DNA of 21,742 nt, taken from positions 1-21,742 of IMG/VR virus record IMGVR_UViG_3300021335_002125; one strand, 5' to 3'. A program made the position numbers and the translations under genes. Under the pieces are notes generated by a model that was not told the origin of the DNA, ran no database searches, and saw only the letters and a program-made list of their open reading frames with translations. Source of the DNA: a virus. Below, piece after piece: positions 13,225 to 21,742 of this stretch (its first letter is position 1; the number at the start of each line of letters is the position of its first letter).

Positions 13225-13434
13225 TTATTTTTTATTTATTCCAAACTTACTAAATTTATACCAAATTCTTTCATGGAAAAAATATAATACCATTTTAGTA
13301 ACTACTTCAACACCCCCAATTGCTAATCCCCATCTCCAATTACCTGTGATTAACCATGAAACTATCATAGTATCTAAAGTACCTATAATTCTCCATGATA
13401 TTGTTTTAGCAATATGTCTTTTATAACTTACCAT
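13225..13434 (-). CDS. DUF2061-type small membrane protein, 69 aa
   Basis: The sequence opens YKRHIAKTISWRIIGTLDTM and continues through two hydrophobic segments, at about residues 10-30 (ISWRIIGTLDTMIVSWLITG) and 35-55 (WGLAIGGVEVVTKMVLYFFH), followed by HERIWYKFSKFG. The K(T/S)xSWRxxGTxDT opening and the central GGxExxTKMxLYxxHERxW are the DUF2061 signature. Function is unknown. From memory, DUF2061 occurs beside or fused to APS kinases in some bacteria, which makes its presence at the end of this operon meaningful. Its ATG overlaps the nucleotidyltransferase 3' end by 14 nt, so it is translationally coupled. I infer an inner-membrane location from the hydrophobic segments. Confidence 0.83.
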   Translation of the reverse strand: MVSYKRHIAKTISWRIIGTLDTMIVSWLITGNWRWGLAIGGVEVVTKMVLYFFHERIWYKFSKFGINKK

Positions 13435-13822
13435 CTTTTTTCATTTGATTTCTAATTGAAGTTGCTGATATATCACCAATTTCTTTTGGTGGTACATGTT
13501 CAATAATGTCATAACCTACACCTCTACCATAATTAATAGATTCAATATCTGGGATGATAGTAGGTAAAACTTTGCCCTCTTCAATAAGTTCTTTTAATTC
13601 ACCTTCTTTTACCATTTCTAGTATTTGTTCTGCTGTCCAAGGATTTTTTTCATCTGGTTTTACATCTCTAATCCCTAACCATACATTATATCCTTCTTTA
13701 AGTCTTTCATTAATTAACCATAGATGTCCTTTGTGTAAAGGTTGCCATCTACCAGCAAAAAATGAATATTTAACTTCTGTACTTGAGCTTTCTTTATCTG
13801 CTTTAGCTTTTAATTCCGCCAT
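13421..13822 (-). CDS. HxGH nucleotidyltransferase (NMN adenylyltransferase-like), 133 aa
   Basis: Residues 19-35 read YSFFAGRWQPLHKGHLW, with the HxGH nucleotide-binding motif at 30-33, and residues 118-124 are ISATSIR, the second signature of the superfamily. The form GRWQPxHxGH plus ISATxIR is closest to NMN adenylyltransferases (NadM/NadR type), but the superfamily also includes ATP sulfurylase and CTP-transferases. At 133 aa it is shorter than typical NadM (about 170 aa). The ATG lies 20 nt inside the HAD gene and the 3' end overlaps DUF2061. Since the first operon gene is APS-kinase-like, supply of an adenylylated substrate is an attractive inference, but the motif set points to NMN or a similar nucleotide. 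Fold confidence is high, substrate confidence low. Confidence 0.85.
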   Translation of the reverse strand: MAELKAKADKESSSTEVKYSFFAGRWQPLHKGHLWLINERLKEGYNVWLGIRDVKPDEKNPWTAEQILEMVKEGELKELIEEGKVLPTIIPDIESINYGRGVGYDIIEHVPPKEIGDISATSIRNQMKKDGKL

Positions 13823-14147
13823 CTCTTTCTAAATTTATTGCAATTGCCCGTTCTCCGGGTTTATTTGGATCCATATCGTTAATTAAGTAACGAGGTCCTC
13901 TTTCAATCCCCATAATTAATCTATCATAAGGAACATAATTTTCATGTAATTCTATTTCTGTGTGTGTTCTAAGATATTCAGGGCGAGCTGTTGTTAAAAT
14001 AATCATATGCCCTTCACTTACCGCCTGGTCTAAATAATCTATTGTAGATTTTATCCCTTCAGCCTTTGTAGTTTCATATGTTTCAAATTTACGATATTTA
14101 AATATAGTCCCATCTATATCTACAAAATATGTGTTTTTCTTTTCCAT
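13803..14147 (-). CDS. HAD-superfamily phosphatase, 114 aa
   Basis: Motif I is FVDIDGT with Asp10 and Asp12, motif II is LTTARP (Thr52/Thr53), and motif IV is LINDMDP (Asp91/Asp93), with Arg86 near the usual Lys position. No cap domain is inserted, so this is a minimal HAD fold. The pattern resembles small capsule-biosynthesis phosphatases (EcbF/BcbF type) and the phosphatase half of some polynucleotide kinases. It would hydrolyse a phosphate monoester. Within this operon the substrate could be a sugar phosphate or a nucleotide released by sulfotransfer, but nothing in the sequence decides this. Its ATG overlaps the APS-kinase-like stop by one base (TAATG) and its end overlaps the nucleotidyltransferase by 20 nt. 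Confidence 0.84.
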   Translation of the reverse strand: MEKKNTYFVDIDGTIFKYRKFETYETTKAEGIKSTIDYLDQAVSEGHMIILTTARPEYLRTHTEIELHENYVPYDRLIMGIERGPRYLINDMDPNKPGERAIAINLERDGGIKS

Positions 14148-14578
14148 TAAATTTGGTCTATAATTTTTTGTAATGATTCTTCAGGTGTATCGTCTGTAGT
14201 ATCTATATCGATAAAATTGTCTTGAGGGCCAATATACGCAATTGCTTTCCAATGATCACGTTCTCTTGCCTCTGATGTATGAACATAAATTTCTTTAATA
14301 TTATCACCTAATAATACTTTAAAATCTTCTCTTTGATCTAAATAAGGTGCTACTAAAGATACTATAACATCTTCTCCCTGATTATGTAAATAATGGGCAA
14401 TGCGTTGTGCTGTTCCTACATTTTCAACTCTACCTTTAATAGAATAATCTTTATTTGAGAATAATTCTCTCATATCATCTCCATCAATTCTATAAGCATT
14501 AGGTAGGTGTTTTTCTTTAAGCAAATTTGCTAAAACTGTTTTTCCATGAGCGGGTTGTCCCGTAAACCAATATATCAT
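14147..14578 (-). CDS. cysC-like: APS kinase-like P-loop kinase (CysC-like), 143 aa
   Basis: The Walker A motif is GQPAHGKT (residues 7-14). It is followed by IDGDDMR (31-37), DYSIKGRVENV (44-54) and SLVAPYLDQRE (74-84), then IYVHTSEARERD. These line up in order with the APS kinase motifs GxxGxGKS, DGDxxR, (G)FSxxDRxENxR, SxxSPxxxxR and (E)VxVxTPxxxxxxRD. APS kinase phosphorylates APS at the 3' position to give PAPS, the donor for sulfotransferases. Two departures matter. Typical CysC is about 200 aa, and this protein lacks most of the lid with the FTGxxxPYE-type APS-binding loop. The Ser phosphorylated in E. coli CysC is Ala77. It may still act on APS or on another nucleotide. It heads the four-gene operon behind the class-2 element. 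APS kinase family: fairly sure; activity: uncertain. Confidence 0.78.
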   Translation of the reverse strand: MIYWFTGQPAHGKTVLANLLKEKHLPNAYRIDGDDMRELFSNKDYSIKGRVENVGTAQRIAHYLHNQGEDVIVSLVAPYLDQREDFKVLLGDNIKEIYVHTSEARERDHWKAIAYIGPQDNFIDIDTTDDTPEESLQKIIDQI

Positions 14579-14638: not shown

Positions 14639-15394
14639 TTAAGGAAAATCATAACCTAAAGTAGTAAAATCTTCCCAATATGTTGTTGTTAGTAATTTTT
14701 TTAATTCCTCATCATAATATTCTATATAAGGTCGTTTTTTTTTAATTGGTCTTCCTTCATTTACTGTTGGAAAAGCTGGTAGATTTTCTCCAAATATTTC
14801 TGATAGTATAGAATTATCTTCTCGTAAGTCTTCTAACTTAAGATAAGTTATATTAGCATCTATATTATTCCAAAAACATTGTGGGATGTAAAATTGAAAA
14901 TAATTAAACCCTGCTGTTTTAAAAAATGAATGGGGGTGATTCTTTAAGTATTTTCTGTAGAATTTGGTATCTTTATATCTAAAAAATTCAGGTGTTGTAG
15001 GGTAATGTGAAACTAAGGGTAAAGTTAATTTCATAGCATCTACAAAGTTAAGCCCTTCAAGTGGTCTTCTTACTCTTTTAATATGTTTAGGATTTCTAAT
15101 TCTTCTTCTTGGGGGACGATTTTTTCTAGTTTCATGTTGTTGATCAATAAATAAATAAGAAGATACTAATCTATTAAGAGGGTTTCTGCAAATTTGGTAA
15201 ACTTTATAATCTTGTAAATTTTCTCCATTTTTTTCCAACACAGAATTATCTACTCCTAGTAGACTATGTCTCCCCCTATCAGTAGTTAGGGGGTCATCAA
15301 ATAAAGATGTATTATCTTTAATTAATCTAACAAAAGAAGAAGTACCACACTTTGGAGGTAAAAGAAAAATGGTCTTTTTAGAAGGAAATATCAT
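14639..15394 (-). CDS. Sulfotransferase (carbohydrate sulfotransferase type), 251 aa
   Basis: The 5'-phosphosulfate-binding loop is LPPKCGTSS at residues 12-20, and the 3'-phosphate-binding motif is CRNPLNRLVSSY, with Arg70 and Ser78 at the standard eight-residue spacing. The form PPKCGTSS plus RNPxxRxxSSY is that of the Sulfotransfer_2-type carbohydrate sulfotransferases. A strongly basic insert lies at about residues 92-112 (ENRRPPRRRIRNPKHIK-like stretch), possibly binding an anionic acceptor. It transfers sulfate from PAPS to a hydroxyl, probably on a glycan. It is cytosolic, with no signal peptide. It is the last sulfotransferase before the APS-kinase-like operon, and a hairpin fills the gap just ahead of its ATG. 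Confidence 0.85.
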   Translation of the reverse strand: MIFPSKKTIFLLPPKCGTSSFVRLIKDNTSLFDDPLTTDRGRHSLLGVDNSVLEKNGENLQDYKVYQICRNPLNRLVSSYLFIDQQHETRKNRPPRRRIRNPKHIKRVRRPLEGLNFVDAMKLTLPLVSHYPTTPEFFRYKDTKFYRKYLKNHPHSFFKTAGFNYFQFYIPQCFWNNIDANITYLKLEDLREDNSILSEIFGENLPAFPTVNEGRPIKKKRPYIEYYDEELKKLLTTTYWEDFTTLGYDFP

Positions 15395-15416
15395 AAAAAT
15401 ACATTTAGGTATTTTT
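15395..15416 (-). other. Perfect inverted repeat abutting a sulfotransferase start codon
   Basis: The minus strand reads AAAAATAC-CTAAAT-GTATTTTT and the ATG of the sulfotransferase follows with no gap. The 8-bp arms are perfect but mostly A-T. The repeat fills nearly all of the 24-nt space after the preceding 103-aa gene. It could weaken initiation or act as a poor terminator with its T-run inside the arm; in such AT-rich DNA chance is also possible. Confidence 0.4.
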
Positions 15417-15418
15417 AA

Positions 15419-15730
15419 TTAATCCCAAGGAGTACCTCTTTTTGTAGTTCTTGCAGCTTGTCTTACAATAGCTTGTGCAATAGAAGCAGAGTTAGAAGTT
15501 TCAATAGAAGATTTATCTACATTACTATGTACCCATTCTAAAACTTTTTCTTCAGTAAGACTATCAAAAGCTATAAAACCTGAGTCACTTGCTGATCCTG
15601 ATAATGTAATATCACCAATTTGTCTAGTTCCAGATTGTTCATGAGCAGATTCACATGCATAGGTCACTTCAATTACTACACCATCAGCAATGTTTCTTTT
15701 AAGGTCGTATATTTTCCAAGTATGTTGCAT
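15419..15730 (-). CDS. Small marine-phage protein, paralogue of the 105-aa protein (DUF7936-like), 103 aa
   Basis: The protein has an opening strand (TWKIYDLKR), an acidic/Ser middle with SGSASDSGFIAFDSLTEEKV, a conserved helix VLEWVHSNVD, then SASIAQAI and the C-terminal GTPWD. It shares this whole plan with the 105-aa protein at 17524-17841. I recall this fold plan (FxxLTExxVxxWV, IxxxxAxIAxQ, PW end) from cyanophage and other marine phage proteins now grouped as a DUF. The function is not known. Its promoter-like 13-mer is perfect, so it is probably made late with the virion proteins. It sits between two sulfotransferase genes. Confidence 0.8.
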   Translation of the reverse strand: MQHTWKIYDLKRNIADGVVIEVTYACESAHEQSGTRQIGDITLSGSASDSGFIAFDSLTEEKVLEWVHSNVDKSSIETSNSASIAQAIVRQAARTTKRGTPWD

Positions 15731-15747
15731 TTTATATAAATTATAAT

Positions 15748-15760
15748 TTATTATAAATAT
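15748..15760 (-). promoter_or_regulatory. Late-promoter-like 13-mer before the 103-aa gene
   Basis: A perfect sense-strand copy of ATATTTATAATAA. TATAAT ends 19 nt before the ATG at 15730, in the gap after the sulfotransferase stop. Confidence 0.5.
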
Positions 15761-15774
15761 GATAAAATTTTATT

Positions 15775-16596
15775 CTAATTAATTTTATATTTAAAATATT
15801 CGTAAAACCAAGGGTAAGTATTAATTATATTCTGTGATAGTTGTTCACCTAAATATTCATTATATATTTCAGGAACAGGTTTAATTTCTTTACGAATTGT
15901 ATGGTCTCCAAAAATACCATGTACTGTATCATCTTCTTGGGTTACTTGTTTTATATTTTGGAAATCATGTTTATATCTATCCAATTCAAAAAAATCATAT
16001 ATTTTATCTAATTCTCTTTGAGGATATAAAGTTAGATCTTCAAACCGAATAAATAAAATATTTTTATCTATTCCTTCATCCATCATTTGTTTTAGTCTTT
16101 CTAGAGCGATACCAACTGGAGGGGATTGTGCCCAAAAATCAACTCTTTTAGATGTTGTAGTATTTTTTAATTCAGCCCAATTTACTATACCACTATCTTT
16201 ATCTTGGTTTTTTCTAAAATTTTTTTCCATAGAAGCATAGATAGATCTTAAATCTCTAACCATACAAACTATTTTAGGGTTTGGGTAAAATAAATTTAAC
16301 CAGTCATAATGGATTCCCCATCCTCTAGATTTATCCATTATATATTTTTTATCTGTGATACCATTAAAAAATCCTTCCATCCCATGACGACAAAAACTAA
16401 GCCATCCTTTTTTCATTAGTTCAGGATCTTGAGCTGTAAAACCAGCATCCGAGGTATAATTTTGACGAGCAGCAAATAAAAGTTCTAATACCCCAGAAGT
16501 AGGGGTTACATAAAAATCAGGATTTTGTCCTAAAATATTTTGTAATAATGTACTACCTGCTCTAGGTAAAGAAGATTGAAAGAATATTTTTTCCAT
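15775..16596 (-). CDS. Sulfotransferase, 273 aa
   Basis: The N-terminus FFQSSLPRAGSTLLQNIL contains the PAPS 5'-phosphosulfate loop (LPRAGST, residues 10-16). The 3'-phosphate motif is CMVRDLRSIYASM, with Arg114 and Ser122 at the standard spacing. A second conserved element, IRFEDLTLYPQRELDKIYDF, around residue 185, is the (Y)EDLxxxPxxxLxxIxxFL block of the family. This is a general Sulfotransfer-type enzyme using PAPS; the acceptor is unknown, and tyrosine-protein or glycan targets are both possible. The ATG overlaps the GT9-like stop (TAATG), so it is translated with that glycosyltransferase, suggesting that the sugar added by one is sulfated by the other. Confidence 0.88.
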   Translation of the reverse strand: MEKIFFQSSLPRAGSTLLQNILGQNPDFYVTPTSGVLELLFAARQNYTSDAGFTAQDPELMKKGWLSFCRHGMEGFFNGITDKKYIMDKSRGWGIHYDWLNLFYPNPKIVCMVRDLRSIYASMEKNFRKNQDKDSGIVNWAELKNTTTSKRVDFWAQSPPVGIALERLKQMMDEGIDKNILFIRFEDLTLYPQRELDKIYDFFELDRYKHDFQNIKQVTQEDDTVHGIFGDHTIRKEIKPVPEIYNEYLGEQLSQNIINTYPWFYEYFKYKIN

Positions 16597-17474
16597 TATT
16601 GGTTATTTATAGATTCTATAATTTTATTTGTATCAAATATATCAGTTAAATCATTATAAGGTACATTATGAATGCTTTCTGATAACCCAAAAGGTTGATA
16701 TTGTGCATTTTGATAATTAGGTTCTTTTGTAAAAGGATTCGCCTTTATATTATCATGTAATTTGTAACCAAATACTTCGGGATTTGTGCTTATCCAACAT
16801 ACTGTAGATTTTAAATCTAGTGATGCTGCTAAATGTTGTCCAAAACTGTCTATTAGTAATCTTTTATTTGATAGTTGTAATAATATAGCAATACTTCTAT
16901 AATTATCTAAAGCCTGCATTGTATCAGGGTATATTTTTTGGTCTTCTCTTTTAATATGAATAATTGTGTAATCGTTTTTATAATGTTCGATTAATTCTAA
17001 AATAGTAGGTTCTGGGATATCTCTTGTCCAAGCATATTGATATGGTAACCCTGCTGGTCCCCCATTTGGTTGGATTGCTAATATAGGTTTATCTGTATTA
17101 TAATAGGGTGCAAAATAATCAATTTCTGGTTGGGTTAGGTATATTTGGGGTTGTTCTCCATTATACCTTAAACCAAATAATTCACACCATGTTTTAAGTA
17201 ATAATTTAGGTTTATCTAAAATAAAATCACTATGTCTATAGGGATCTTCTACAAATATTTTACAATCCTGATCTTTTATAAATTTTAAATAAAAGCCATT
17301 TGTGTTATCAAAATGATAAACTTCATTAATGTAAGGATTATTTAAAAAAACATCAGTATGAGCTGTTACTATTATAATATTAGCATTTTTATAACGTTTT
17401 CTTATAACTTTAGTCATAGCAGTTGCTAATATACTTTTACCTAGACCTCCGTCTATTTGAAATATAATATTCAT
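16596..17474 (-). CDS. GT9/heptosyltransferase-like glycosyltransferase, 292 aa
   Basis: The N-terminus NIIFQIDGGLGKSILATAMTK begins a Rossmann-like domain, followed by IIIVTAHTDVFLNNPYINEV, the pattern of ADP-heptose:LPS heptosyltransferases and related GT9 proteins. The second domain has LAIQPNGG (residues about 131-138), then HIKREDQ, and a C-terminal LLIDSFGQHLAASLDLKSTV with CWISTNPEVFGY, corresponding to the donor-binding (S)xxxHxAxAxxxxxVxLFG(s) block. I recall this branch as common in marine phages. It probably adds a sugar to a lipopolysaccharide-like or virion glycan. It is behind the class-2 element and is translationally coupled to the 273-aa sulfotransferase. The donor sugar is unknown. 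Confidence 0.77.
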   Translation of the reverse strand: MNIIFQIDGGLGKSILATAMTKVIRKRYKNANIIIVTAHTDVFLNNPYINEVYHFDNTNGFYLKFIKDQDCKIFVEDPYRHSDFILDKPKLLLKTWCELFGLRYNGEQPQIYLTQPEIDYFAPYYNTDKPILAIQPNGGPAGLPYQYAWTRDIPEPTILELIEHYKNDYTIIHIKREDQKIYPDTMQALDNYRSIAILLQLSNKRLLIDSFGQHLAASLDLKSTVCWISTNPEVFGYKLHDNIKANPFTKEPNYQNAQYQPFGLSESIHNVPYNDLTDIFDTNKIIESINNQ

Positions 17475-17526
17475 TTATAACATTTTATAATAAGGTTAAT
17501 ATACATAACTAATTTAAATTTTCCTA
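17475..17526 (-). promoter_or_regulatory. Class-2 upstream element before the GT9-like gene
   Basis: The sense strand reads TAGGAAAA, 14 nt, GTATATTA, two bases, CTTATTATAAAA and TTATAA before the ATG, matching the element at 14581-14631 in parts and spacing. The first TAG is also the stop codon of the 105-aa gene. GTATATTA ends 22 nt from the ATG. Confidence 0.4.
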
Positions 17527-17841
17527 GTTATCCCAAGGAACACCTGTTTTTTTTATTATTTGATTACTTGAAGAAAATTCAATTTGTGCTATAGAAGCAG
17601 AATTTTGCACTTCAATAGCTGGGATATCTATTGAAGATGTTATCCACCCTAAAACTACATCTTCTGTAAGATTTTCAAAAGAAATAAAACCTTCATCTGT
17701 AGAAGAACCTGTTATAGCTAAAGTAGAAGTATATCTTTCTGTGTGATTATTATGATTTGATTCTAAACCATACATTATTGAGTTTACTACTCCATCTGAT
17801 TCTACTCTTTGGAGGCTATAAATTTTTAAAATATGTTCCAT
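17524..17841 (-). CDS. Small marine-phage protein, paralogue of the 103-aa protein (DUF7936-like), 105 aa
   Basis: It aligns over its full length with the 103-aa protein: LKIYSLQR, then GSSTDEGFISFENLTEDVVL, GWITSSIDIPAIEVQNSASI, AQ, and the C-terminal GVPWDN. Conservation is visible at DNA level too, for example around the TCCCAAGGA and ATAGAAGCAGA stretches on the plus strand. No enzymatic motif is present. It has a perfect late-promoter-like 13-mer directly at the preceding stop codon. It lies upstream of the GT9-sulfotransferase pair, just as its paralogue lies downstream. Function unknown. Confidence 0.8.
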   Translation of the reverse strand: MEHILKIYSLQRVESDGVVNSIMYGLESNHNNHTERYTSTLAITGSSTDEGFISFENLTEDVVLGWITSSIDIPAIEVQNSASIAQIEFSSSNQIIKKTGVPWDN

Positions 17842-17851
17842 TTAATTTACT

Positions 17852-17864
17852 TTATTATAAATAT
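17852..17864 (-). promoter_or_regulatory. Late-promoter-like 13-mer before the 105-aa gene
   Basis: A perfect sense-strand copy of ATATTTATAATAA, starting at the last A-T of the GT-A stop codon region (GGATAATATTTATAATAAA). TATAAT ends 12 nt before the ATG at 17841. Confidence 0.5.
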
Positions 17865-18571
17865 TATCCAATTCCATCCCAATTTATTTTTTCTGGAGAT
17901 AAATGAATGCAATGAGTATTTAAAGATATTACTTGATAGAATAATTGTTTAAAAACATAATCATCTGTACCTGCATTATTTGACATAGTAGGATATACTT
18001 GGTATAAATTTTTATATACTTTTTTTAGTGCTTTTAAATTAAATAATTGAAAATACCCCCATCCTAACCATTGTTGAATTATTTGACTTTTATTTTTAAA
18101 TACTTCTTTAAAATTAATAACATCAAGATCTTCATCTCCATTAAGATTAATTCTACCCATTGTATATAAATAAAGAGCAACAGGTGCTTCTCCTATTTGG
18201 TGTTTATGAGTTATAATTCTTTGTAAATATGTATGTCTTAATTTACCCGTAATATGAGTAGAGGTAAAGGTTGATGGGAAGTCATCGTTTAATAAAACAT
18301 CGGCATCTATATGACAATACCATTCTTCATCTTTACCCATATAGTCAAAACCTTCATTTATAGCTGCCCCCTTATTAAAAGTTCTTTCATATATTTTTTT
18401 AGATAAAATATATTCTAAATCATTATCTTTACAAAGTTTAATTGTATCTTCATCATCTTCATGAGTTACAATAACCCATCTTTTAAAAAATCTTCTATTT
18501 GAAATACAATACTTTAAGTAATGGGAATAGTTTATACAAACTGTAACTGCATTTATTTCTATTGGAACCAT
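17864..18571 (-). CDS. GT-A fold glycosyltransferase, 235 aa
   Basis: The N-terminus INAVTVCINYSHYLKYCISN followed by RWVIVTHEDDEDTIKLC is the first strand-helix unit of GT-A enzymes. FNKGAAINEGFDYM (about residues 65-78) and YCHIDADVLL, with the metal-binding DxD at Asp89-Asp91, are the donor-site motifs. The C-terminal part has LGWGYFQLFN and a GTDDYVF(K) acidic block, then CIHLSPEKINW, resembling the catalytic-base and closing region of galactosyltransferase-like GT2/GT7 enzymes. It is a cytosolic enzyme using a nucleotide sugar and Mn or Mg. It stands between a sulfotransferase (26 nt upstream) and the 105-aa gene. Donor and acceptor are unknown. Confidence 0.84.
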   Translation of the reverse strand: MVPIEINAVTVCINYSHYLKYCISNRRFFKRWVIVTHEDDEDTIKLCKDNDLEYILSKKIYERTFNKGAAINEGFDYMGKDEEWYCHIDADVLLNDDFPSTFTSTHITGKLRHTYLQRIITHKHQIGEAPVALYLYTMGRINLNGDEDLDVINFKEVFKNKSQIIQQWLGWGYFQLFNLKALKKVYKNLYQVYPTMSNNAGTDDYVFKQLFYQVISLNTHCIHLSPEKINWDGIG

Positions 18572-18596
18572 AAATTATAACTAATTATAATAATTT

Positions 18597-19433
18597 TTAA
18601 GAATAATCGTACCAAGTACTATAATCTAAGTGTGGATATAAATCCTTTATAGCTGCTACATCATCTCTAAACATTGGTTTTAGATAATTTACAGTTGATG
18701 TTTCTATTTCACTAGAATAATCACCTACAAATATTTTATCAAACCCCTGAGATGGATCAAAGGGTGATACTCCTAAAAAAGTACATATTTTATTATATTC
18801 AGTTAATGGGTTAGCAGCAATACTTTCTTGCAATGTTACATAAATTTTATCTGAACCTATATCCGTTAACCAAGTAGATAAATTATCTTTATATAAACTT
18901 CTTTGAAATATATTTGTTCCAAAATAATATCTAGAAACAGTATCAAAAGATTTATTATAAGCATAAGAACCCCAAGTTGGATTTTTAGTCTGAATATGGT
19001 TAAAGTGACTATAAGCTCTTCTAATTGGATCCCTTAATAAAATAATGATTTTAGCATTTGGTAAATCTGATGCTATACGAGATGATGCACCCCCATTTAA
19101 AGATTCATCTAAACCAAAATAATTAGGAGATGATTCACCTCTTGCTGTTAAACGTCTTGGAAAAAATGATTTATATATGTCAAATGATCCAGTTAAGTTA
19201 TAATTAGTATCTAAATTAAAGTAATCCATTTCTTTATTACCTTTTTCTTTCATACTACCAGCCCAAGAGCCTGTTTGAGCAGAATAATTATATTGATCAC
19301 TACTTAATATTTTATCTTTCCAAAAAGTAGTAACCATGTATATTTCAGAATGCTTATTAAGATTAAAAGCAGCCGCAGTTGTACCTGCTTTCATTACTCC
19401 TGCTACAATAAAATTTGGTTCGTGTGATTTCAT
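18597..19433 (-). CDS. Sulfotransferase (heparan-sulfate sulfotransferase-like), 278 aa
   Basis: The N-terminus NFIVAGVMKAGTTAAAFNLN has the PAPS loop MKAGTT at residues 14-19. ARGESSPNYF (about 97-106) corresponds to the K(Y)GEkSPxYF block of heparan N- and 3-O-sulfotransferases. IILLRDPIRRAYSHFNH gives the 3'-phosphate motif with Arg134 and Ser142 at standard spacing. The C-terminal half contains YVTLQESIAANPLTEYNKIC, the (l)YEDLxxdPxxxxxxIxxFLG equivalent. This is a different subfamily from the other two sulfotransferases here. It starts 18 nt after the stop of the cysteine-rich repeat protein, so it is likely co-transcribed with it, and the acceptor could be that protein or a glycan on it. 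Confidence 0.88.
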   Translation of the reverse strand: MKSHEPNFIVAGVMKAGTTAAAFNLNKHSEIYMVTTFWKDKILSSDQYNYSAQTGSWAGSMKEKGNKEMDYFNLDTNYNLTGSFDIYKSFFPRRLTARGESSPNYFGLDESLNGGASSRIASDLPNAKIIILLRDPIRRAYSHFNHIQTKNPTWGSYAYNKSFDTVSRYYFGTNIFQRSLYKDNLSTWLTDIGSDKIYVTLQESIAANPLTEYNKICTFLGVSPFDPSQGFDKIFVGDYSSEIETSTVNYLKPMFRDDVAAIKDLYPHLDYSTWYDYS

Positions 19434-19451
19434 ATTTATAAATATATAAAG

Positions 19452-21742
19452 CTATTTTTTATATTTCAAATTATTTTTGTAATTAGTTATTTCTCCTTCA
19501 TTTTTCAATGTTTCAACTCCTTTCCATATTTTAATAGCATCTTTATCTTTTCTAGTTGCAACAACTAATACGTTATATTTACCAGGGTCTGAAGTTGTAA
19601 TTTTTACTTTAGTGGCACTTAAATTTACTATACCAAATGCTTTACCTAAGCTATCCATTGGGTTAACCCATACTTGAGAATTTTCATTTAAATATCTATA
19701 ATATTCAGGTAATATAATTTCACCTTCTAGATCTTCTCCTATTTCAACTTCAAATCTATATAAGTTATCTCCAGCAGTTGGTGATTCAACGAAACTATGA
19801 TGTAAATTATGTGTAGCTGATTTACATGGATTAGGATGATCAATTTTAAATGAGCCACCTGCTTTAGTTAATGAACCAAATGCACAAACATTACACATAA
19901 AAGTAGTGTTACATGCTGTACTATTTTTACCATATGTTCCTAATATAGCACTATAGGAATGGTTACAACATATTTGGTTATTATATCCAGCTATTAAAGT
20001 ATAGAAAGCACAAGATTTATTATTCCCACCAAATATTGCACCTGCAAACATTTCATTAGCAGTAGTTCCACCACCAGCATTGTTACCACATCCTGCTATA
20101 ATATTATATTTACTTTGACAACAAAAATTGTTGTTTTGACCAAATCCTGCATTATAACATATACAATTGTCTCCACATCCAATTCGGATATCACATCCAA
20201 ATGCTACGTTGTAACAAACATCATCACCACAAATAACATTCTGACATCCTCCTAAAATAGAATTCCATTTACCACCACCTAGCATTACATTTTCAGTACC
20301 CCCTAAAATATTGTTAAATTCTGGAAGCGTTGATGTAGAACAGATACGATTATTTCTACCCCCAACAATATTACTATTATGACCTCTACAAACTATGTTA
20401 CTATAACCAGCCCCTATAAAGTTTCTAGTAGAATTACAACATATTCTGTTATAAACGCCCGCTCCAATAAAATTTCCTGATTGGTAAGTAGTAGAACTTA
20501 AAGCACAACCCGTTATAATATTATTTGCCCCACCAGAAATTATACTAGCTTCATCACATGATATTCGGTTAAATGCACCACCAACTATCGTGTTAAATCT
20601 TCCACATGCAGCACAGGTGCATATTTTATTACTATCACCACCCACTATAGTATTAGCATTAGATGTTTGCCAAGGTGCTGCAGAATTATTTTGTTTTACA
20701 CAAATAAAGTTACTAGCTCCCCCTAATATTGAGTTAAATGAGGAATTACCATTACTATCTGCTATACAATTACTAAAACCTCCACCTATAACATTATGTT
20801 TACTTACATTTCCATTTTTATGTAAATAACCATTAGTACTTAGAGCTAAGCTATAAATCCTATTAAACTTACCTCCTCCAATATTAGAACCATGTTGATA
20901 ACAATAAATACAGTTAAAAGACCCACCTGCAATAGTCATATTTCCATCAAAAGATCCTGACCCTGCACATATTTTATTGCAATGGCCACCTAAAATTGAA
21001 CTATTTGTAGCTTTAAAGTTTGCATTAGCGGTATTACTTTGTATTGTGTTTTGACATCCTGCAAGAATTGATGAATTATTTGAACAGTTTTCTATGATAC
21101 TTCCGGTACCCGCACCTATAAATGCGTGATGTGCCTTTATAGTATTACAACAACCAGCTCCAATAAAGTTTTGGTTAGAACCACTAATGCAATTCTTAAA
21201 TCCACCTGCAATTATATTTTGGTATAAACCATTAGTAGAATAACCCCCACTTGTACCTGCATGTATTTTATTACATCTCCCAGCTAGAATTGCATTACCG
21301 CCAGCACCGTAAGGATAACCATTACTTATGCTATTACAACACCCACCTCCTATAAAAGAAAAATAACCATTATAACTAGTAGCAATACAATTAAAACGTC
21401 CTGTGACTATTCCACCTGCATTAACATTATAAATGCAATTATTACATCCCGCTCCCATAAAATTACCACTACCAAAGTAAGCACTATTTAATCTTCCCCC
21501 TCCAATAAATGTCCAACTTTGGTAATTAGATATAGAATTTGTACAACCTCCTACTATAGAATTTTGATAATAACCTGCTACAGTATTTGATTGTCCTCCT
21601 ACTATAACATGGTCTGATCCATTTGAAATATGGTTATTATGTCCTCCTCCTATAAAAGAAATTGAACCTTGCAGACAATTACAAAATCCTCCAACTATAG
21701 AAGAAATTGCTCTAGATACTATATTATTACATCCCCCTCCGA
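19452..21742 (-). CDS. Cysteine-rich glycine-repeat fibre/adhesin-like protein, 5'-truncated by window edge
   Basis: The reading frame is open from the window edge to a TAG at 19452, so the visible 763 codons are the C-terminal part; an internal Met at 21458 is not the start. About 34 imperfect repeats run to near residue 620, with core (I/V)(G/A)G(G/A)xxNxI spaced 12-25 residues apart. This suggests a beta-roll or beta-solenoid, as in trimeric adhesin heads. About 40 cysteines lie mostly just after GG or after N in the repeats. The C-terminal 140 residues hold a domain beginning GGSFKIDHPNP, followed by HHSFVESP and IILPEYY, which I recall at the ends of phage and bacterial fibre-like proteins. 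No S74 peptidase is visible after it. I infer a receptor-binding or decoration fibre. The downstream sulfotransferase is 18 nt away. Confidence 0.75.
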   Translation of the reverse strand, partial: GGGCNNIVSRAISSIVGGFCNCLQGSISFIGGGHNNHISNGSDHVIVGGQSNTVAGYYQNSIVGGCTNSISNYQSWTFIGGGRLNSAYFGSGNFMGAGCNNCIYNVNAGGIVTGRFNCIATSYNGYFSFIGGGCCNSISNGYPYGAGGNAILAGRCNKIHAGTSGGYSTNGLYQNIIAGGFKNCISGSNQNFIGAGCCNTIKAHHAFIGAGTGSIIENCSNNSSILAGCQNTIQSNTANANFKATNSSILGGHCNKICAGSGSFDGNMTIAGGSFNCIYCYQHGSNIGGGKFNRIYSLALSTNGYLHKNGNVSKHNVIGGGFSNCIADSNGNSSFNSILGGASNFICVKQNNSAAPWQTSNANTIVGGDSNKICTCAACGRFNTIVGGAFNRISCDEASIISGGANNIITGCALSSTTYQSGNFIGAGVYNRICCNSTRNFIGAGYSNIVCRGHNSNIVGGRNNRICSTSTLPEFNNILGGTENVMLGGGKWNSILGGCQNVICGDDVCYNVAFGCDIRIGCGDNCICYNAGFGQNNNFCCQSKYNIIAGCGNNAGGGTTANEMFAGAIFGGNNKSCAFYTLIAGYNNQICCNHSYSAILGTYGKNSTACNTTFMCNVCAFGSLTKAGGSFKIDHPNPCKSATHNLHHSFVESPTAGDNLYRFEVEIGEDLEGEIILPEYYRYLNENSQVWVNPMDSLGKAFGIVNLSATKVKITTSDPGKYNVLVVATRKDKDAIKIWKGVETLKNEGEITNYKNNLKYKK

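Follow-up and report, generated by a model that had tools for sequence, protein, structure and literature searches.

Four tightly packed genes of a marine phage, encoding a CysC-like kinase, a HAD phosphatase, a small HxGH nucleotidyltransferase (NT) and a DUF2061 membrane protein, raise the question of which pathway such a combination serves, and in particular whether it supplies the sulfate donor PAPS. The stretch of DNA analysed, referred to here as the window, is the entire IMG/VR record IMGVR_UViG_3300021335_002125 (21,742 bases). The record is part of the genome of a marine myovirus with relatives among the Flavobacterium phages, and its tail sheath shares 51% identity with that of the Immuto group of these phages. 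No kinase, NT, DUF2061 or sulfotransferase gene is annotated in the tail fibre-to-sheath stretch of Immuto and, because annotated counterparts are missing there, the cassette looks like an accessory island. The four overlapping reading frames described in the first-pass annotation were all recovered on the minus strand, transcribed in the order kinase, HAD, NT and DUF2061 (Table 1), with overlaps of 1 nt (kinase/HAD, TAATG at 14147), 20 nt (HAD/NT) and 14 nt (NT/DUF2061), and their families agree with the Pfam and profile matches. The fixed stoichiometry formerly deduced from this packing was abandoned, since the HAD gene comes and goes between cassettes.

Table 1. Features of the cassette and of the region upstream of it in the window
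Feature	Position	Strand	Basis
DUF2061 small membrane protein, 69 aa	13225..13434	-	PF09834; CysC-CysD neighbours in Flavobacteriales
14-nt dual-coding overlap (DGKL-stop / MVSYK), conserved in cassettes	13421..13434	-	63/92 NT-DUF2061 junctions with an NT ending in DGKL and the exact 14-nt overlap
HxGH nucleotidyltransferase (NT), 133 aa; proposed minimal ATP sulfurylase	13421..13822	-	PF01467, invariant residues, APS kinase fusions in cells
HAD phosphatase of PNKP type, 114 aa; optional member	13803..14147	-	weak PF25109/PF03767, phrog_415/505, Pnkp1 4xrp, motifs
CysC-like (APS kinase family) P-loop kinase, 143 aa	14147..14578	-	PF01583, profile matches, motifs
Sulfotransferase (Sulfotransfer_2), proposed PAPS consumer	14639..15394	-	PF03567, 25.3 bits against a cut-off of 22
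Sulfotransferase (Sulfotransfer_3), proposed PAPS consumer	15775..16596	-	PF13469, 4.4e-19, 70 bits against a cut-off of 27
Glycosyltransferase-like protein, recurs beside the cassette	16596..17474	-	read from sequence; no Pfam match; phrog_8954
GT-A-like glycosyltransferase, possible maker of the acceptor glycan	17864..18571	-	weak PF13704/PF13733, below cut-off
Third sulfotransferase-like protein	18597..19433	-	KAGTT loop and RDPxxRAYSHF read from sequence; profile homology to other sulfotransferases

Viral contigs were scanned separately with each of the four cassette proteins, the results clustering into 136 distinct contigs, and co-occurrence was counted in loci of at least 8 kb. With the NT as query, the kinase was present in 42/44 loci and DUF2061 in 38/44; with the kinase, NT was present in all 47 and DUF2061 in 45/47; both enzymes accompanied DUF2061 in 46/49 loci, and kinase and NT together accompanied HAD in 38/41. 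The grouping of the four genes is thus beyond chance and constitutes a recurring cassette, with the viral order kinase-(HAD)-NT-(one insert)-DUF2061. The insert between NT and DUF2061 is either a small 2OG-Fe(II) oxygenase (L196, L256, L132 and others) or a member of a sulfotransferase-like family with a PRTGST loop, a family of about 200 aa (L148:7168-7767 and 11 relatives) that occurs beside or inside the cassette and was read from sequence, with no Pfam match. In one virus group a NodU/TobZ-type carbamoyltransferase lies downstream of the cassette (L289:6888-8540 and about 20 relatives), and the same group also carries QueC/QueE-like genes. Motifs of a phage inorganic pyrophosphatase were sought around the cassette without success, although one neighbour matched PF00719 in Pfam.

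The HAD gene was found in 63 of the 121 clusters having kinase and NT, so the four-gene form is one variant and the phosphatase, at first taken as an obligate part, is missing from about half of the cassettes. Fusions occur in viruses between kinase and HAD (L039, L254, L260) and between kinase and NT (L263). The HAD protein is of the PNKP/acid-phosphatase type, with matches to the polynucleotide kinases phrog_415/505 and to Pnkp1 (4xrp, 7e-4) and weak, below-cut-off matches to PF25109 (21.5 bits, cut-off 27.6) and PF03767; its catalytic DxDGT is invariant in the 16 members aligned, and DxDGT, TTARP and ND are invariant or nearly so. Relatives of this protein have 3'-phosphates in nucleic acids as substrates. 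Kinase and HAD might accordingly be regarded as a split Pnkp-like pair that heals nucleic-acid ends, with NT as an unrelated neighbour, a proposal in line with the matches of HAD to polynucleotide kinase phosphatase domains and yet a most improbable one, given a HAD missing in half of the cassettes, a kinase and an NT that are nearly inseparable, and a kinase of CysC-like and not Pnkp-like character.

The kinase of the window passes the cut-off of the APS_kinase family PF01583 (2.9e-15, 57.1 bits, cut-off 21.1), and its top profile matches are the SAT/APS kinase 2gks (5e-18) and CysC structures; among 37 viral kinase members, Walker A, DGDxxR, GRxxN and (S)PYxxxR are invariant or nearly so. 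Against the NCBIfam apsK equivalog TIGR00455 it scores 55.5 bits, under the cut-off of 138.7, and the full lid with FTGxDxPYE is missing in the viral kinases, where the lid is shortened; this sub-cut-off score and the shortened lid are among the weakest points of an assignment to PAPS synthesis.

The NT scores over the cut-off of PF01467 (1.3e-5), and its N-terminal half is related to the NadM-type NMN adenylyltransferases (TIGR01527, 1ej2, 2qjo), which are its top match (profile matches to 2qjt, 2.9e-10, and 1f9a, 5e-12) and with which it shares GRxQPxHxGH and SxTxxR. Across 57 viral and cellular members, G24, R25, Q27, H30, G32, H33, R52, P61, G99, R100, G103, S119, T121 and R124 are invariant; H30, H33, S119, T121 and R124 belong to the nucleotidyltransferase motifs HxGH and SxTxxR, and R52, G99, R100 and G103 are specific to the NT family. 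Unlike NadM, the NT falls far under the family cut-off (27.3 bits against 181.2 for TIGR01527), and in an alignment with 18 archaeal NadM sequences the Trp and TNNP block that follows the IPDI region, present in nearly all NadM rows, is absent in all NT rows, with GRxVGY in its place and NadM GSA replaced by IRD. The Trp of NadM stacks on nicotinamide in the 1ej2 structure. Arg52 and the Arg100 of GRxVGY probably bind an oxyanion, forming a sulfate pocket where NadM binds NMN. As to the Sat type, no PF01747 match to the 133-aa NT was obtained in the Pfam scan, and the sulfate-binding QxRN motif is not in NT, which has GRWQP instead. The NT family forms its own clade in the tree, distinct from NadM (100/100), and has changed between viral and cellular carriers four times or more. 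Judged by the defining features in their sequences, the NT is a member of neither NadM nor Sat.

An AlphaFold model of NT (pLDDT 89.7, pTM 0.80), made with 57 sequences from viruses and cells, has NadM as its top match (2qjo, 7.8e-4; 1ej2, TM 0.65), with ATP sulfurylase lower. Naming the NT by fold alone was set aside, given that both AlphaFold models favour NadM over ATP sulfurylases and that fold does not decide. The outcome declared beforehand to speak against a sulfurylase was a best structural match to NadM with conserved NMN-binding residues and no association with sulfur genes, and half of it came about: NadM is the best match in sequence and structure, but its NMN-binding residues are not retained in the NT, and the family does occur with sulfur genes.

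That association is most evident in cells. Scanning of GTDB genomes with the NT alignment located the family in Marinimicrobia, Bacteroidota, SAR11, a marine group III archaeon, Nitrospiraceae and Acidobacteria, and also in Dadabacteria, Planctomycetota, Omnitrophota, Patescibacteria and Diapherotrites. In most of these loci a CysC-type kinase adjoins the NT or is fused with it, and the fusions come in both orders, as kinase-NT fusions (L310, L316, L318, L335, L339, L340) and as NT-kinase fusions (L320, L324, L326, L329, L332, L336, L337, L341); against a role in PAPS synthesis, the Dadabacteria and Nitrospira loci have no adjacent kinase. The apsK cut-off of 138.7 bits is exceeded by the fused kinases of L316, L320, L324, L326, L332, L336, L337 and L341, these passing partners reaching 159-212 bits, and by the adjacent, unfused kinase of L302. 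A sulfotransferase-like gene lies within two genes in 9/14 fusions, called by Pfam above cut-off in L320, L332, L336, L339 and L340, by weak matches in L316 and L335, and in L324 and L326 by sequence motifs and homology to the other fusion-linked ones. Neither Sat nor CysN was over cut-off in 43/50 NT genomes (Sat, PF01747, in 4, CysN in 3 others), an absence that is suggestive only, as the genomes are mostly incomplete; two of the eight genomes with apsK-passing fusions (L316, L320) also have Sat, and a PF13469 sulfotransferase is present in 36/50 NT genomes. From such sequence and context features, the NT would appear to be an ATP sulfurylase of a type not described before, which many uncultivated bacteria and archaea also carry, frequently joined to APS kinase. 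In a marine group III archaeon (L314) and in Bacteroidota (L317, L321, L323, L325, L328), NT or kinase-NT adjoins an S-adenosylmethionine synthetase gene, several of these loci also having S-adenosylhomocysteine hydrolase.

The same data bear on NAD salvage by a NadR-like pair, in which the NT would be an NMN adenylyltransferase in reduced form and the kinase would act on nicotinamide riboside. NadM is the top match in sequence and structure, and NadR too combines an NMN adenylyltransferase with a P-loop kinase; nevertheless, the NMN-binding Trp and TNNP block is lost, the kinase is of CysC type and exceeds apsK cut-offs in the cellular fusions, the recurrent partners are sulfotransferases and DUF2061, NadD is already encoded in 39/50 NT genomes, and only one of the 50 viral records has NAMPT, placed 168 kb away. 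On the motif loss, the apsK fusions and the NadD and NAMPT counts, NAD salvage is unlikely and was rejected.

The SAR11 members are a special case. Their kinase is divergent, with NADE in place of DGD, and the presence of NT and of PF13469 is weakly correlated (26/59 versus 17/59, p = 0.063); for these two reasons the main argument does not draw on SAR11. In several genomes the SAR11 kinase-NT (L344, L342) adjoins genes for DMSP-demethylase-like (DmdA-like) and methanethiol-oxidase-like proteins, and SAR11 encodes AprBA, reportedly without sat and most assimilation genes (PMC5069961); a table in that paper lists cysC and cysQ with almost no cysD, cysN, cysH, cysI or cysJ, although its text calls cysC missing (PMC5069961). 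Such surroundings would fit an NT that in some lineages runs in reverse (APS + PPi to ATP + sulfate), completing the oxidation of sulfite. This direction appears very unlikely, since the kinase and sulfotransferases of the viral cassettes would then be unneeded, and the SAR11 branch is divergent in the tree.

In the window, three sulfotransferases, two glycosyltransferase-like genes and a large fibre protein lie upstream of the cassette in the same orientation. The large protein (19452-21740, open at the contig end) is repetitive, with a Gly/Asn/Cys pattern, and is probably fibre or adhesin-like; between its gene and the cassette, the stretch 14639-19433 also holds two DUF7936 proteins (phrog_7802), and its sulfotransferases are of three different families. 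The composition of 14639-19433 suggests a glycan sulfation island. The Sulfotransfer_3 family of the window adjoins the kinase in many viruses and, reciprocally, a scan with this protein placed the kinase in the flank of 11/20 loci, usually immediately downstream. In 50 whole cassette-bearing viral records, 12 of the 13 PF13469 matches above cut-off were no more than 4 kb from the kinase, where the record lengths would predict 1.6 (P about 5e-11; 10/11 when counted once per record, P about 1e-9), P values that are overstated because related contigs are not independent, though the association recurs in records between 42 and 250 kb long. In 46/130 cassette clusters a member of one of four sulfotransferase families is no more than five genes away, and in 30 of these it is adjacent. 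About two thirds of the viral cassettes thus have none within five genes, and none is annotated near the NT of cultured Xanthomonas and Stenotrophomonas phages, both of which argue against PAPS as the product.

DUF2061 provides a further link to sulfur. The protein of the window matches PF09834 (4.4e-25, 88.3 bits, cut-off 23.1), a domain found in 14/60 Flavobacteriales genomes, where it directly precedes CysC-CysD in six and lies by CysC, CysD, CysH or nitrite/sulfite reductase in about 10/14; three weak matches and one strong match among the 14 have no sulfur neighbour. In L383 the partners are secure by NCBIfam (CysC 253.8 against 138.7 bits, CysD 434.7 against 195). These operons bear out the first-pass annotation of DUF2061 as a genomic partner of sulfate-activation genes; the literature found on it consists of passing mentions and was uninformative. 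Given DUF2061 in the CysC-CysD operons of Flavobacteriales, the NT in the phage cassette takes the position of CysDN in cells. The neighbourhood statistics proposed at the outset for DUF2061 and NT show co-occurrence of kinase, NT and DUF2061 in viruses, and of DUF2061 with CysC-CysD in Flavobacteriales.

Alternatively, the NT may adenylylate another oxyanion or acid (a phosphonate, a phosphoramidate-like compound or a sugar phosphate) and the CysC-like kinase phosphorylate the conjugate, the sulfotransferases being mere co-residents of glycan islands. The shortened lid and sub-cut-off apsK score of the viral kinases, the many cassettes without a nearby sulfotransferase and the resemblance of the kinase-phosphatase-NT order to ADP-heptose synthesis are compatible with this, and some CysC homologues, such as Campylobacter Cj1415, act on other substrates. 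Such a substrate is doubtful, nevertheless, considering that NTs of the same family are fused to apsK-passing kinases, that DUF2061 ties the cassette to CysC-CysD operons and that the sulfotransferase linkage is strong and reciprocal. An ADP-heptose-like pathway in particular was discarded, with no recurrent heptose partner seen and a kinase not of the PfkB type.

The sulfotransferase linkage, the apsK-passing fusions, the DUF2061-CysC-CysD operons and the loss of NMN elements point instead, from context and sequence, to the shared APS/PAPS pathway of the first-pass annotation, and the same lines speak for its speculative suggestion of NT as a putative minimal sulfurylase substitute. With a probability of roughly 0.7, the cassette is a compact PAPS-supply module in which the NT is a minimal, non-orthologous ATP sulfurylase that leads, together with the CysC-like kinase, to PAPS. 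From the observed gene order, linkage, fusions and motifs, we infer each catalytic step, its direction and the acceptor as follows. The NT would adenylylate sulfate (ATP + sulfate to APS + PPi), and the kinase would phosphorylate the 3'-OH of APS to give PAPS, a step proposed to pull the unfavourable sulfurylase reaction forward. The neighbouring sulfotransferases would spend PAPS, probably on a phage-encoded glycan or fibre, with release of PAP. For the two other members the roles are likewise inferred: the PNKP-like HAD, where present, may strip the 3'-phosphate from PAP, and DUF2061 would be a membrane partner of sulfate activation, perhaps in sulfate entry or in enzyme anchoring.

To our knowledge, the routes from sulfate to APS are Sat and CysDN. 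Among known systems, the bifunctional PAPS synthases (animal PAPSS and bacterial Sat-APS kinase fusions) likewise join an APS kinase with an HxGH nucleotidyltransferase, in both fusion orders and with sulfotransferases as consumers, but the putative sulfurylase half is here a NadM-like domain of 110-130 aa with neither QxRN nor the PF01747 architecture, and is not Sat. The CysC-CysD-CysN operons of Flavobacteriales similarly contain CysC and DUF2061 together, whereas in the phage cassette the small HxGH nucleotidyltransferase replaces CysDN. In siphophages of Xanthomonas and Stenotrophomonas, phrog_10255, labelled 'kinase', combines in one protein an NT of this family, with GRDVGY, and a CysC-like kinase (AhaSv WRQ05410.1); unlike the cassette of the window, it is fused and has no DUF2061 or annotated sulfotransferase nearby. 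In Xanthomonas phage AhaSv (L445) the fused protein has 248 aa and its gene lies about 3 kb from one annotated as cysteine dioxygenase. Sulfotransferases have previously been noted in phages (PMC10829341), and cysC is listed, not validated, as an auxiliary metabolic gene of aquatic viruses (PMC12713726); the cassette shares cysC with these, while its pairing with NT and DUF2061 was not found described in the literature searched. Nor did the freely available journal articles searched yield a description of the NT itself, of an NT paired with APS kinase or of a NadM-like sulfurylase.

Taken more widely, and at somewhat better than even odds, the NT family would represent a third, NadM-derived class of ATP sulfurylase of about 110-130 residues, linked to APS kinase, which phages have carried into Bacteroidota, Marinimicrobia, Omnitrophota, Patescibacteria and archaea and which serves to sulfate glycans of phages and cell surfaces in the absence of the classical enzymes. 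If this is true, a much smaller and unrelated route to APS would account for genomes in which APS kinase and sulfotransferases occur without a sulfurylase; as a fusion of about 250-300 residues, it would be a compact PAPS synthase that may serve enzymatic sulfation; and a sulfation pathway would be added to those carried by many aquatic phages.
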